A stretch of DNA of 64,000 nucleotides from Bacteroidota bacterium (GTDB lineage Bacteria > Bacteroidota > Bacteroidia > M30B66). The notes under the pieces were generated by a model. It worked only from the letters and a program-made list of their open reading frames with translations, did no database searches and had not been told where the DNA came from. Of this stretch, positions 7,141 to 44,548 are shown in pieces. The DNA is taken from positions 1 through 64,000 of the forward strand of contig JAIXUS010000042.1 of the NCBI GenBank assembly GCA_027483445.1. The letters are read 5' to 3'. Position 1 is the first letter of the stretch. The number at the start of each line of letters is the position of its first letter. The position numbers and the translations under genes are program-made.

Positions 7141-7563
7141 ATGAAAAAGAAATTCGGAATTGCATTGGCTTGTTTGGCCGGAATGGCCGTTCAGGCGCAG
7201 CATGTAGAGTCAAGTCCTACTACAGTCCATGTCGACGAAACAGGCATATTTGAAGAGCAGCGAGAAGCTGTTTCAGGCGAGGAGTCGGAGGTTGACAAAG
7301 AGGTAACCTCATTGTCGGCGGCATTGTCGGCCAATCTTATCTTGTTTCCTAACCCGGCAGAAGATCAGTTTATCATAAAGCCAATTTTACGCCGCAGTTT
7401 GGTGGGGATTTTCAAGTTAGATGGGACGAAGTTGTACGAAGAATGGCATCAGCCGGTAGGCCAGGTGTTGAATATTGAATTCCGTGGATTAGACCCGGGA
7501 ATGTACATCGTTCGAGTGAGCAATCCGGTTCAACAAAGGCGTTTCAGACTGCAGGTTGAGTAA
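7141..7563 (+). CDS. Mini T9SS cargo: signal peptide, acidic spacer and sorting domain only
   Basis: The protein has 140 residues. A signal peptide (MKKKFGIALACLAGMAVQAQ) is followed by about 45 acidic, unstructured residues rich in Glu and Ser, then directly by a T9SS type A sorting domain: LILFPNPAEDQ, VGIFKLDGTKLYE, PGMYIVRVSN. There is no room for a catalytic passenger. Possible roles are a surface-attached peptide, a competitor or regulator of sortase PorU, or the remnant of a larger protein. It is monocistronic, with its own terminator downstream. Confidence 0.8.
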   Translation: MKKKFGIALACLAGMAVQAQHVESSPTTVHVDETGIFEEQREAVSGEESEVDKEVTSLSAALSANLILFPNPAEDQFIIKPILRRSLVGIFKLDGTKLYEEWHQPVGQVLNIEFRGLDPGMYIVRVSNPVQQRRFRLQVE

Positions 7564-7592
7564 TTCAACTGCATCAAAATACATCGTGCGTG

Positions 7593-7636
7593 AAAAGAAG
7601 CCTGTCGGCCCTTCGGGTGTCCGGCGGGCTTTTCTC
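7593..7636 (+). terminator. Rho-independent terminator
   Basis: AAAAGAAGCCTGTCGG (7593-7608) pairs, with G-T wobbles, with CCGGCGGGCTTTTCT (7621-7635). The loop is rich in C and G. It lies about 30 nt after the stop of the mini T9SS protein. Confidence 0.75.
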
Positions 7637-7749
7637 GTTAAGGATTCGATGCAAGGGTGTTTGTTCGGCTTGCGTTAGGAGGCCTACTCGTTCGGAGTAT
7701 AGCATGATAATTTGAAGTTAACCCAATTATTAGGAGTGCAGCCTGAAGC

Positions 7750-8130
7750 TCAGCGGCGTGGGCCTTTGGGATTTGAAGCTGTATGCGGGTCTTGTTCGAT
7801 GAGATGAGCAATGATGCGGTCTTTTTCGACCAGTTGTTTTCGAAGGAATTGGATTTCTTGTTCAAGGTGGTGAACAAACTCAACGGTGTACATCGATCTC
7901 TCTCTTCCGGGTTTTACTTCATGCCCGAAAAGGAGTATTTCGACCGGTACTTCGAGTGCCATTGCAATTTTGGCCAGGCGTTCAAGCGTGAGTGGAGCCA
8001 GTCCCTTTTCCAGTCTGTGGTACGATGAAGTATCGATGCCAATCACGGAGGCCATATATTCCTGCGAGATGCTTTTCATGCTTCTGGCCTCCCTGATATT
8101 GTCGCAGACTTTGTTAATATACTGAACCAT
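7750..8130 (-). CDS. XRE-family transcriptional regulator with coiled-coil tail
   Basis: 126 residues from ATG 8130 (MVQYINKVCDNIREARS); the frame is open further up to 8220, but those codons overlap the operator and are unlikely to be translated. Residues about 8-65 form a Cro/CI-type helix-turn-helix: SISQEYMASVIGIDTSSYHRLEKG followed by LTLERLAKIAMALEVPVEIL. The tail (YTVEFVHHLEQEIQFLRKQLVEKDRI) is a predicted coiled coil for dimerisation. It is divergently arranged with the 8384 gene, with a double palindrome between them, and so probably represses itself and that cluster. It resembles XRE proteins found throughout Bacteroidota. Confidence 0.8.
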   Translation of the reverse strand: MVQYINKVCDNIREARSMKSISQEYMASVIGIDTSSYHRLEKGLAPLTLERLAKIAMALEVPVEILLFGHEVKPGRERSMYTVEFVHHLEQEIQFLRKQLVEKDRIIAHLIEQDPHTASNPKGPRR

Positions 8131-8183
8131 GCGCTTAATTAACGAATCATTCTCTGAATATGCAAATTTATTGACTTGAAAAA

Positions 8184-8222
8184 TTTTGCGTGTGGCGCAA
8201 AACTTTTGCATGTGGCGCAAAA
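8184..8222. promoter_or_regulatory. Tandem palindromic operator of the XRE regulator (putative)
   Basis: Two 19-bp dyads, TTTTGCG-TGTGG-CGCAAAA (8184-8202, perfect) and TTTTGCA-TGTGG-CGCAAAA (8204-8222, one mismatch), share the same 5-base centre. Their centres are exactly 20 bp apart, close to two helical turns. They lie about 55-90 bp upstream of the XRE start and 160-200 bp upstream of the divergent gene. Binding by the XRE protein is inferred from position. Confidence 0.65.
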
Positions 8223-8243
8223 CAACCTGCTATACGGTCGGCT

Positions 8244-8251
8244 TAAGTTTG
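8244..8251 (+). promoter_or_regulatory. Possible -7 element for the 8384 cluster
   Basis: TAAGTTTG fits TAnnTTTG and lies 22 bp after the second operator dyad, so a bound repressor could block the -33 region. It would give an untranslated leader of about 125 nt before ATG 8384. Confidence 0.4.
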
Positions 8252-8383
8252 TAAAACCGAAACACGAAGTCGAAAGGAGGTTAGCCATGACATAGAAACC
8301 GCAATTCAATTAACGCATCTGTATCTGGAGGGATTTTCTGCTTACCCTAAATCGGGCAGAACAATCATTTCCAAACAACAACC

Positions 8384-8839
8384 ATGAAACAATTCATTTT
8401 TACCACAGTAATTGCATTTTGCTTTTTATCGAATCTCGGATTTGCAGGAACCAATAAATCGTTTGAACCAACCGACATTATCATCACGATTGACGTCGAT
8501 GGTGAAATCGGAATAAAAGATAAGAAATGCCGAGGTATTAGTCTGGAATGCCTCGATTGGGGAGGTATAAACATTGATATTGTGAAGGCTCAACTCACCG
8601 AACCAGTTAAACCCGGCAAAGAGAGAATCCAACTTCAAGTCGTTTCAGGCGGAAAAATTAAAATGACTTTTATCAATTCTGAGACAGGTGATTTTGAACT
8701 CCAAAAAGATTTTGTGTTTAACGAGAAAATTGCAAACGCATTAGGGTATAAGAATATCACCCTATTGCAAGGGAAATACAGAACGGCTAAGAACAGGAGT
8801 GGATTCACCGAAGTCATCGTAGACGCCCGACTTAAATAA
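8384..8839 (+). CDS. Small secreted protein of unknown function
   Basis: The protein has 151 residues with a signal peptide (MKQFIFTTVIAFCFLSNLGFAG). The mature part is rich in short beta-strand stretches (DIIITIDVDGEIGI, IQLQVVSGGKIKMTFIN) and has two Cys residues (KKCRGISLEC) that might form a disulphide. No family was recognised. It is the first of three same-strand genes (8384, 8891, 9534) with 51- and 4-nt gaps, facing away from the XRE regulator, so it is probably controlled by the operator at 8184-8222. The DNA is more AT-rich than its neighbours. Confidence 0.7.
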   Translation: MKQFIFTTVIAFCFLSNLGFAGTNKSFEPTDIIITIDVDGEIGIKDKKCRGISLECLDWGGINIDIVKAQLTEPVKPGKERIQLQVVSGGKIKMTFINSETGDFELQKDFVFNEKIANALGYKNITLLQGKYRTAKNRSGFTEVIVDARLK

Positions 8840-8890
8840 AAATTCGCATTTTGAAGGAGGAGTAATTCCTCCTTCTTTCAACCAAACCTC

Positions 8891-9529
8891 ATGAAAACAA
8901 ACACGCTATTGCTTCTTTGCCTAAACCTTTTTATTTTCTCAGGCTGCATTCAAATCGTCAAAGTCATTCATGGAGCTCATCAACCCCGACAGGAGAAAGT
9001 CGAATTTATTCGACAATTCGCACAGAAGAAGGGCATTCAAATCGAGGGTACTGCAATGATTGCCGAAGATTCGATTCTGTATTCATTTGTAAAAAGGCTC
9101 AATGAGGCGGTGCTTTTTGATAAAAATGGCTATCAAATACTCTACAATCAAAATTTTGACAACCCCAATTGCGGCGGGAATATTGAAAATTTTTTAGGAG
9201 GCCTCGATACTATTACCTATGCAACGCGCGATTCAGGGAACACCATTCAAAAAGAGGCCGGAATGTGGGTGAAATTTGGTTCAAAAGAAGCTTTTGACAG
9301 TGGTTTTAACCCCTCTAAATATGATTATTATGTAGCCTACTATTGGAATACTTTTTCCGGAAATCCCAATCACCGTGACGCCATTAAGAATCTACAGCAA
9401 GTAATTGATCTCAATAAAAGGATTTCAGTTAAGATGATTTTGGTCAACCAGGATATTCGTGACGGAATCGATGAACAAAAATTCGTTCAAACCGCCAAGC
9501 GCTATGGATTTGATGCTGAAGTAAAGTAG
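8891..9529 (+). CDS. Lipoprotein of unknown function
   Basis: The protein has 212 residues. MKTNTLLLLCLNLFIFSGC is a lipoprotein signal peptide with a lipobox at FSGC. The mature part has mixed helix and strand and contains many aromatics (KYDYYVAYYWNTF). Its C-terminus reads FVQTAKRYGFDAEVK. No family was recognised. It is the second gene of the cluster following the 8384 gene, preceded by a GGAGGAGTAA-like purine run around 8855. Codon use is AT-rich like its neighbour, which hints at accessory origin. Confidence 0.7.
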   Translation: MKTNTLLLLCLNLFIFSGCIQIVKVIHGAHQPRQEKVEFIRQFAQKKGIQIEGTAMIAEDSILYSFVKRLNEAVLFDKNGYQILYNQNFDNPNCGGNIENFLGGLDTITYATRDSGNTIQKEAGMWVKFGSKEAFDSGFNPSKYDYYVAYYWNTFSGNPNHRDAIKNLQQVIDLNKRISVKMILVNQDIRDGIDEQKFVQTAKRYGFDAEVK

Positions 9530-9533
9530 CCTA

Positions 9534-10514
9534 ATGAGTTTTCGGATCAGCCCCAGGGCCACCCTTTTAGCGTTGAATGCAGCATTTGTTATTTTGGCAA
9601 TGCTCCCATCATTCGCCCAATCTGATCCGTGCAAGCCGTCTTTTTTGCATCAGTTTAGTCATGCCGTTCAACAATGCGATACTACTTCTAAAACCGCAAC
9701 TTCAAAGGCGCCTCCCAAAAAGAGCTCAATGCAATACGACTTTCGGGTTAATCTTGGAGCTATCGTCCTAAGCCGATCGATTGCCCAAACGGGCTATTGC
9801 AAACTGTCAACAAATCTGAGCACGCATGTTTTATGGAAATTCCCCCGCCGAAAAACAGCCAGCGAAATTGAAATACGCGACGAGTCCGGAGCCGTATTTA
9901 TTCCCGATAGCCTTATTGAAAAAGTGCAGGATCAGTTGCGAATTAAACTTTCCCATAGTCACAAAATAAACGATTCAGCGAGGGTGTTGGGAAGTACGTC
10001 AATGGTTCTTACAACGGAGAAATTCAATGGAATGACAAGCTACACGAAGCTGAATCCCGGCACAGTAAACAGTGGATTTCTCAGTCCCGGAGAACTGGTG
10101 AGCTCTGCCGGGTTCAAATTGCAATCGTTTGGCTGGGGGCATATCGAATTGGGACTAGCCGCATTCAAAGTGACGTGGGTGGCAAACAAAAAGCTTTACG
10201 ACATTCAGCAAACCGCAGTTTTGCATCAAGTGAGGCGCGAGCAAAAAGCTAAAATAGATGGTGGTCTTTCTCTGCAAACCCAAATCGATAGACGGCTCAG
10301 TAAACAAGTCCGTTGGGAAAGCAGATTACTGTTGTTTGCCGGTGTGGGAGAGAATACCAGTCGCGATATTGAGTTCCGAAACGAATGGTTGATTAACCCG
10401 GATGGCTCTTTCAAAACAAGCCTTCGCTCTGTTTACTCATACAAGAAAGGACGCTGGCCACCCGGCAATCTTACCGGTGAATTCACCATAGGAATGAATC
10501 TTAGCAAGCCTTAA
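9534..10514 (+). CDS. Secreted protein, probable outer-membrane beta-barrel
   Basis: The protein has 326 residues. The N-terminus is a signal peptide (RATLLALNAAFVILAMLPSFAQ), followed by a linker with a KTATSKAPPKKS stretch. From about residue 65 the sequence alternates polar and non-polar residues (YDFRVNLGAIVLS, HIELGLAAFKVTWV, WESRLLLFAGVG, LTGEFTIGMNLS), as expected of a transmembrane barrel. No family was recognised. The start lies 4 nt after the lipoprotein stop, so the two are translated from one mRNA. The three genes may form one envelope complex: periplasmic or secreted protein, lipoprotein and barrel. Confidence 0.65.
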   Translation: MSFRISPRATLLALNAAFVILAMLPSFAQSDPCKPSFLHQFSHAVQQCDTTSKTATSKAPPKKSSMQYDFRVNLGAIVLSRSIAQTGYCKLSTNLSTHVLWKFPRRKTASEIEIRDESGAVFIPDSLIEKVQDQLRIKLSHSHKINDSARVLGSTSMVLTTEKFNGMTSYTKLNPGTVNSGFLSPGELVSSAGFKLQSFGWGHIELGLAAFKVTWVANKKLYDIQQTAVLHQVRREQKAKIDGGLSLQTQIDRRLSKQVRWESRLLLFAGVGENTSRDIEFRNEWLINPDGSFKTSLRSVYSYKKGRWPPGNLTGEFTIGMNLSKP

Positions 10515-44035: not shown

Positions 44036-44548
44036 ATGAAAAAACAAGCAGACAGACTTCGCCTTATTCGCGTTTCCAAAGGCATGAGTCAAGAGAATGT
44101 TGCCAAGGCACTAGACATTACTGTTGGTGCTTATTCGAAAATTGAAAGAGGTGTTACCAAGTTAAGCCTGAACAGATTAGGCGACCTGGCCCGTATTTTC
44201 GACATTGATCTGAACGATCTCATCCGTTATCTCAACGGCGAATCAGATACCCTTGACAATAAGCTCAATATTCCTGGAGCAGGGCAATCCAGCAACTTCG
44301 GTGGCAGTGTTGCTCCCGACTCGGAGGTAGCTTTGTTGCGTAAAATCATCAACCTCTACGACGAGAGTCGTGAGCTGAATACCAAAACGGTAATTCGAAA
44401 CATGTTCGAAAACAACAATGTGAATATCGGTAGCTTTCTTGATGTGATGAAAGATTGCTCAAATCATCTGGCTTCCCGCAAGCTTGATGCCTCGCAAATC
44501 ACCAACTTTAACAAAGGCCTCGAAAAGCTTGTTGAACTGCTCTCCTAA
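44036..44548 (+). CDS. XRE-family transcriptional regulator
   Basis: The protein has 170 residues. Residues about 5-65 form a Cro/CI helix-turn-helix (LRLIRVSKGMSQENVAKALD, ITVGAYSKIERGVTKLSLNR), followed by IFDIDLNDLIRYL. The remaining 100 residues include a polar linker (NIPGAGQSSNFGGSVAPDSE) and helices that end in FNKGLEKLVELLS; this part may bind a ligand or partner. No operator was recognised. A strong terminator follows, so it is a single-gene unit. It is longer than, and not very similar to, the XRE protein at 7750. Confidence 0.8.
   Translation: MKKQADRLRLIRVSKGMSQENVAKALDITVGAYSKIERGVTKLSLNRLGDLARIFDIDLNDLIRYLNGESDTLDNKLNIPGAGQSSNFGGSVAPDSEVALLRKIINLYDESRELNTKTVIRNMFENNNVNIGSFLDVMKDCSNHLASRKLDASQITNFNKGLEKLVELLS

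Follow-up and report, generated by a model that had tools for sequence, protein, structure and literature searches.

The two adjacent palindromes at positions 8,184 to 8,222 of the window (the whole 64,000-nucleotide stretch of DNA analysed here) are a phylogenetic footprint and, as judged from their conservation, a real operator-like element. We consider it fairly likely, at a probability of roughly two in three, that they form the operator of an XRE activator dedicated to a single operon of exported proteins. The operator by itself is of a familiar type; what is new is the promoter combined, in this lineage, with a leader that carries a strong Shine-Dalgarno (SD) sequence and a Met-Thr-stop frame.

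Two sites at a fixed distance from the operon promoter

The regulator gene, the sites and the promoter elements lie as follows:

7753..8130 (stop to 7750), - strand: XRE regulator, 126 aa, HTH_3 followed by a C-terminal region with a conserved LExE..FLR
8163..8170, - strand: TAAATTTG, which may serve XRE as a -7 box, 13 bp from the distal site, a gap found in G000 and G004 only
8184..8202: distal palindrome, TTTTGCG-TGTGG-CGCAAAA, predicted centre at about -63 of the operon promoter
8204..8222: proximal palindrome, TTTTGCA-TGTGG-CGCAAAA, predicted centre at about -43 of the operon promoter
8244..8251, + strand: -7 box of the operon promoter, TAAGTTTG, 21 bp past the proximal site, the same box being present in 9/9 loci

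Both palindromes are located between the divergent start codons of the XRE gene (8130, - strand) and of operon gene 1 (8384, + strand). Their centres, 8193 and 8213, are exactly 20 bp apart, a single base separates the two sites, and the arms pair at 7/7 positions in the distal and 6/7 in the proximal copy. An earlier note had described two 19-bp palindromes 20 bp apart beside an XRE gene, and this description holds: a 19-mer repeat identical at 18/19 bases at offset 20 is unique to this place in the window and arose in none of 200 Markov-1 shuffles, and the pair is conserved across relatives. Looser palindrome tests came close to chance. Two palindromes of at least 6/7 spaced 19-23 bp apart were found once in the window versus 0.65 times per shuffle, an unimpressive test; two 7/7 palindromes were found neither in the window nor in 100 shuffles; and the motif with up to three mismatches, expected 0.27 times per window, reached two occurrences in 4/100 shuffles. 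The decisive evidence for the site is its conservation.

The order was represented by 10 genomes from 5 genera, and a strong XRE orthologue was found in nine of them; the tenth, G009, is 73% complete. Three of the relatives are MAGs (Bacteroidetes bacterium RE-18aug17-170, RE-26jul17-123, and MiE-14oct19-96, labelled Chitinophaga pinensis). The proximal site, TTTTGC-N7-GCAAAA, is present in all nine loci with an XRE orthologue, with 0 mismatches in eight and 1 in G006. With gaps of 18-23 bp allowed, the TAnnTTTG box follows after 20 bp in five loci and after 21 bp in four, a rule that agrees across the 5 genera. When the stretch between the site and gene 1 was shuffled, the box fell at 20 or 21 bp in 0-16 of 5000 trials per locus; these per-locus chances are not to be multiplied, since the loci are related (5/9 belong to one genus) and the test came after the rule had been noticed. 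The distal site lies 20 bp further in 8/9 loci and 21 bp further in G002, and carries at most three mismatches in 7/9. In G005 and G006 it has degenerated to 5 mismatches, and there the arms, too, diverge between the copies (7 and 6 of 12 positions alike).

Information content was computed over eight loci, leaving aside G004 as a near-duplicate. The proximal arms averaged 2.00 and 1.91 bits, the 7-base core 0.86, the distal site 1.16 and the flanks 0.53-0.61; the value for the -7 box, 1.54 bits, is partly fixed by how the loci were aligned. The TGTGG spacer had been put forward as conserved. It is indeed common to both copies here, but its low information relative to the arms contradicts this, and in 5/9 genomes (G001, G002, G005, G006 and G008) only 1-3 of the 7 core bases agree between the copies. 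Judging from the alignment, the kept feature is the pair of arms together with the distance to the -7 box, rather than the TGTGG core.

In Flavobacterium psychrophilum, TAnnTTTG spans -12 to -5 (PMC9723704). If this numbering is carried over, the proximal site would be centred at -42/-43 and the distal site at about -62/-63. A TTG at -38 to -28 was found in 0/9 of the operon promoters. The geometry is consequently of class II type, with a predicted site near -42 and no upstream element of the promoter's own. A dimer site at -42 on a promoter that lacks an upstream box is the classic activator arrangement, exemplified by lambda cI at PRM.

The XRE side is far less constrained: the distance from the distal site to the XRE start codon varies from 53 to 202 bp among the nine loci, and TAnnTTTG is absent between the sites and this start codon in six of them; where present, its gap is 13 bp in G000 and G004 and 20 bp in G007. 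As little is kept on this side, the operator belongs first to the operon. The earlier note had suggested two same-face sites tied to both the XRE gene and the exported-protein operon, which our data support, and joint control of the regulator and the cluster, which they support only in part, since the sites track the -7 box of the operon and not the XRE gene, on whose side the spacing varies and a TAnnTTTG is present in only 3/9 loci.

A scan of the genome had also been proposed, with random scatter of the motif as the outcome that would refute the proposal, and such scatter was absent both for the exact motif and for the site combined with the -7 box. In the window's genome (G000, a 4.26-Mb assembly of 87 contigs), the 19-mer with N at position 7 matched without mismatch at this locus only; up to three mismatches gave ten matches (nine places, one of them on both strands) versus five in the reversed control. 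The site followed by the -7 box (arms exact, gap 19-20) was found in 4/60 genomes, at this locus only, and 0 times in the control, a pattern that the 21-bp loci and G006 do not fit. TTTTGC-N7-GCAAAA without mismatch is present at three places genome-wide, of which two are this pair and the third is C17:13925. Up to one mismatch yields 46 places versus 22 in the reversed control, so that further targets beyond the operon are possible; a large regulon is unsupported. The C17 site (L006:1460-1519, extending to 13943) lies upstream of a 447-aa gene that we take to be DUF2851, with an imperfect TTTTGCG..CGCA about 40 bp away; inspection by eye revealed no TAnnTTTG at 20-21 bp from it.

The XRE protein as candidate activator

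The regulator matched PF01381, a helix-turn-helix family of the Cro/C1 type, with an E-value of 2.4e-10 (40.7 bits, cut-off 23), and a conserved palindromic operator is present near the XRE gene and its target at 9/9 orthologous loci. The orthologues carry IDTSSYHRLE or a close variant in the region of the recognition helix; the paralogue family of the order reads ITVGAYSKIE there. A second XRE-type gene in the window (44036-44548), with homologues in 10/10 genomes of the order, has a recognition helix of this latter type and lacks a tandem TTTTGC site. No tandem site was found beside XRE paralogues and weaker XRE matches in 21 loci of the order (L073-L093), several of which have a single site with at most two mismatches; one of them, L073 (the same as L038, in G009), shows a perfect, A-rich single match. 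Tandem sites were equally absent from seven loci of XRE relatives outside the order (L124-L130) and from 21 loci with homologues of gene 2 in genomes beyond the order (L103-L123, drawn from 32 genomes of this kind), and none was seen in other XRE loci (L027-L047), single sites with at most two mismatches occurring in some members of all three sets. The linkage between the tandem site and the XRE orthologue is thus good, and points to the XRE protein as the putative binder.

On the preferred reading, the palindromes would together serve as operator for the XRE protein encoded divergently beside them, whose dimers would sit at about -42/-43 and -62/-63 on the same face of the DNA, possibly bound cooperatively and under the influence of a signal. 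Since a -7 box is present but a TTG near -33 is not, recruitment of RNA polymerase by the bound dimers is most likely, in the manner of lambda cI at PRM, and the operon would be on only when the XRE protein is bound. The sites, their fixed distance from the -7 box, the missing TTG and the linkage to XRE orthologues are all directly observed; the binder and the sign of regulation we infer.

Lambda cI combines activation with cooperativity at OR2/OR1 and PRM. The resemblance of that system to the present one extends to HTH_3-type dimers, neighbouring palindromes, one of them at about -42, and a poor upstream box. The two differ in that the centre spacing is 20 bp here, the target is a chromosomal exported-protein operon with the Bacteroidota promoter TAnnTTTG, and there is no sign here of the XRE gene as main target.

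XRE proteins are often repressors, and a predicted site at -42 overlaps the -33 region, so repression also fits the geometry. Dimers could in that case cover the -33 region of the operon and, here, the XRE promoter as well, a signal releasing both. Indeed, in G000 and G004 the TAAATTTG box lies 13 bp from the distal site, which could thus also cover the XRE promoter, and the best NCBIfam match of the protein, although weak (45 bits versus a cut-off of 80), is to the RstR repressor family. However, with a TTG in none of the nine operon promoters there is little unaided promoter to repress, and the XRE-side arrangement is kept in 2/9 loci only. We thus regard a repressor as rather unlikely, and XRE autorepression as unproven.

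Among solved structures, the controller protein C.AhdI (1y7y, E 2e-8) is the sole relative at E<=1e-6, which brings to mind a switch in which a first dimer would activate and a second, of lower affinity, would repress at high concentration. C.AhdI and C.Esp1396I are likewise small XRE-type proteins that act at a promoter preceded by a pair of adjacent dimer sites and, for C.Esp1396I, PMC4041747 describes an activating OL next to a repressing OR; here, too, there are two sites per promoter. Those proteins, however, control their own C and R operon and repress from the proximal site, whereas the present sites track the divergent operon, and of the two it is the proximal, which that model would make the weak, repressing one, that is better kept. 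The neighbours in the eight relatives are the kdsB-like and exported-protein genes described below, in place of a restriction-modification operon under its own promoter, and no restriction-modification genes were recognised alongside, by eye and by match to the window. A switch of this kind appears improbable.

C.Csp231I offers another likeness, with inverted repeats around a 5-bp spacer (CTAAG-N5-CTTAG) and two sites per promoter; its recognition sequence is different and its 15-bp sites are 18 bp apart (PMC4321490), while the 19-bp sites described here are separated by 1 bp.

That the palindromes belong to another protein, or are a recent and unimportant tandem duplication beside the XRE gene by chance, is very hard to sustain: the copies do agree at 18/19 bases in G000 and one further perfect TTTTGC-N7-GCAAAA lies upstream of the 447-aa gene, but among relatives divergence between the copies is greater in the cores than in the arms, and neutral duplication does not explain a proximal site and -7 box kept in 9/9 loci; since most loci retain the arms but not the cores, we reject a functionless duplication.

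Activation by a dedicated XRE protein thus remains our preferred reading, and the locus offers clear activator geometry on a TAnnTTTG promoter. In the open-access literature (titles and the beginnings of abstracts), we found no described XRE operator of such kind in Bacteroidota.

The exported-protein cassette

Three genes follow the promoter:

8384..8839, + strand: operon gene 1, 151 aa, with a signal-peptide-like start, fast-changing, two invariant Cys
8891..9529, + strand: operon gene 2, 212 aa, with a lipoprotein-like start
9534..10514, + strand: operon gene 3, 326 aa, with a signal-peptide-like start

Homologues of genes 1 and 3 are present in the corresponding stretches of 8/8 relatives and those of gene 2 in 7/8, the eighth gene 2 (G002) having been found by a separate search. 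Across from the operon, a gene that we take to be kdsB-like is present in 6/8 relatives, namely those whose contig extends that far. The XRE proteins of G000 and G004 share 98% identity, their gene 1 products only about 30%. In G004, the promoter is followed by a gene 1-gene 2 pair whose gene 2 is 45% identical to that of G000; further downstream (L054:7659-9854) lie the truncated remains of a gene 1 of the G000 kind and then a gene 2 that is 89% identical. By analogy, this turnover of gene 1-gene 2 pairs may resemble that of loci with replaced effector-partner pairs. The locus provides a testable one-operon regulator, together with its defined operator, for a cassette of exported proteins that changes fast, in an order of Bacteroidota that has been little studied.

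Structure prediction and family searches brought little. The predicted fold of gene 1 (pLDDT 72.6) had no convincing match, either with Foldseek (best E 0.057) or with VIA-align (best Z 3.3, for 5t7a, rmsd 3.3 over 62 aligned positions), and the model of gene 2 was poor (pLDDT 38.9) and was set aside. Pfam matches of genes 1 and 2 were weak and each limited to one member (including PNK3P at 0.0031, DUF1030 at 0.0084, ETX_MTX2 at 0.025 and Thioredoxin at 0.17), and we claim none of them. An Rfam search of positions 7500-9500 of the window at E<=1 matched no family.

Strong Shine-Dalgarno and two-codon frame in the leader

Between the promoter and gene 1 lie:

8256..8383, + strand: predicted operon leader RNA, 128 nt, its start predicted from the -7 box with TAnnTTTG taken as -12 to -5 (PMC9723704)
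8272..8281, + strand: strong SD, GAAAGGAGGT, pairing at -17.0 kcal/mol with an assumed 16S tail
8287..8295, + strand: two-codon frame ATGACATAG, Met-Thr-stop, of the form ATG-AC(A/T)-TA(A/G) in 5/5 genomes of the genus

The predicted leaders of the nine loci measure 115-171 nt; for F. psychrophilum, the median 5' UTR reported in PMC9723704 is 24. In all five genomes of the genus, the leader contains an ATG-codon-stop frame with an SD: a strong SD (GAAAGGAGGT, AGAAAGGAGG or AGAGAGGAGG) is followed by Met-Thr-stop, with the ATG at a predicted +22 to +32, and in G000 the main start lies about 90 nt past the two-codon frame. A search for this pattern returned 5/10 genomes of the order, with one place each (listed twice in G001) and all at this locus, versus 3 matches in the reversed control. 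The changes within the frame are synonymous (ACA/ACT, TAG/TAA) and the spacing between SD and ATG has some slack, which suggests that the kept feature of the mini-frame is its translation.

In Bacteroidota, rpsU is often the gene with a strong SD, and the ribosomes of this lineage's relatives hide their anti-SD. The leader SDs pair at -16.3 to -17.0 kcal/mol, versus -2.9 to +1.3 kcal/mol for rpsU, which was found in eight genomes; these energies use the assumed 16S tail, a search of this assembly for 16S rRNA having found none. A strong SD is absent at rpsU in 8/8 genomes of the order where the gene was found (L158-L165). According to PMC9976891, the extended SD of rpsU in Bacteroidia pairs over 9-13 bp at -14 to -21 kcal/mol, and SD-dependent control appeared confined to rpsU among 200 Flavobacteriales surveyed. 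A strong SD kept outside rpsU in 5/5 genomes of a genus, and absent at rpsU itself wherever found, contrasts with that survey, and the leader is a natural place to ask if ribosomes of this sort make use of strong SDs at genes other than rpsU.

Strong SDs do occur elsewhere in the genome, so that the argument for the leader is one of conservation, not uniqueness. The pattern AAAGGAGG-N3-8-ATG was found 21 times versus 13 in the reversed control, and some of the strong SDs elsewhere seem to precede real genes, including one at -17.5 kcal/mol whose gene encodes a protein with a start that looks like MurG.

Outside the genus, the frame that starts at the leader's first ATG has two codons (Met-Lys) in G005 and G008, four in G006 and eight in G007. 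The best pairing energies of these leaders are -10.9 (G007), -10.3 (G005), -5.4 (G006) and -4.6 kcal/mol (G008); in G005 and G007 the best pairing falls past the first ATG, and no comparable SD lies ahead of the two-codon frames of G005 and G008. By shuffling, an early two-codon first frame arose in 1.4-5% of trials per leader, in a comparison made post hoc.

Three known elements bear comparison. The leader frame ATGACTTAA, with the same nine letters in G001, G002 and G003, is also that of minigene mg2 of axe-txe, which in E. coli reporters acts in cis to increase expression of the gene that follows, perhaps by shielding the RNA (PMC8708949). There the minigene lies 15 nt ahead of the main start, in contrast to about 90 nt in G000, and the phylum is different. 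A strong SD is likewise the mark of the Bacteroidota rpsU and of the STAB-SD of cry3A, the latter also placed near the RNA 5' end, where it binds 30S and blocks RNase J1 (PMC4113751). Unlike in those cases, the strong SD described here precedes a two-codon frame, and rpsU goes without one. No two-codon SD leader in Bacteroidota was found in the open-access literature (titles and the beginnings of abstracts).

In the genus, a second, post-transcriptional layer of control is probably added by the strong SD and the Met-Thr-stop frame, close to the predicted 5' end of the RNA. As to its nature, we prefer, with low confidence and by analogy, a 5'-end shield or gate. A more specific possibility, which we hold only tentatively, is that the SD/Met-Thr-stop element of the XRE-activated operon RNA also reads ribosome state. 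Ribosomes able to pair with the leader SD, for example those without bS21, would load there, halt once a single peptide bond has formed, and so act as a shield or gate on the operon RNA; the output of the operon would in this way depend on two inputs, the XRE signal and ribosome state.

An extra match of a looser SD pattern, on C79 (L049:1475-1627, - strand), was rejected, being short and leader-like but not a two-codon frame. It consists of a TAnnTTTG followed by GGGGAGG and CCATGACATAT, and lies at a contig end with no obvious gene behind it. Finally, a leader motif of roughly the form GGCAGCCnCGTTCGCCTCACCA, not seen in the window's genus, is shared between promoter and gene 1 by G005, G006 and G008 and is present in weaker form in G007.
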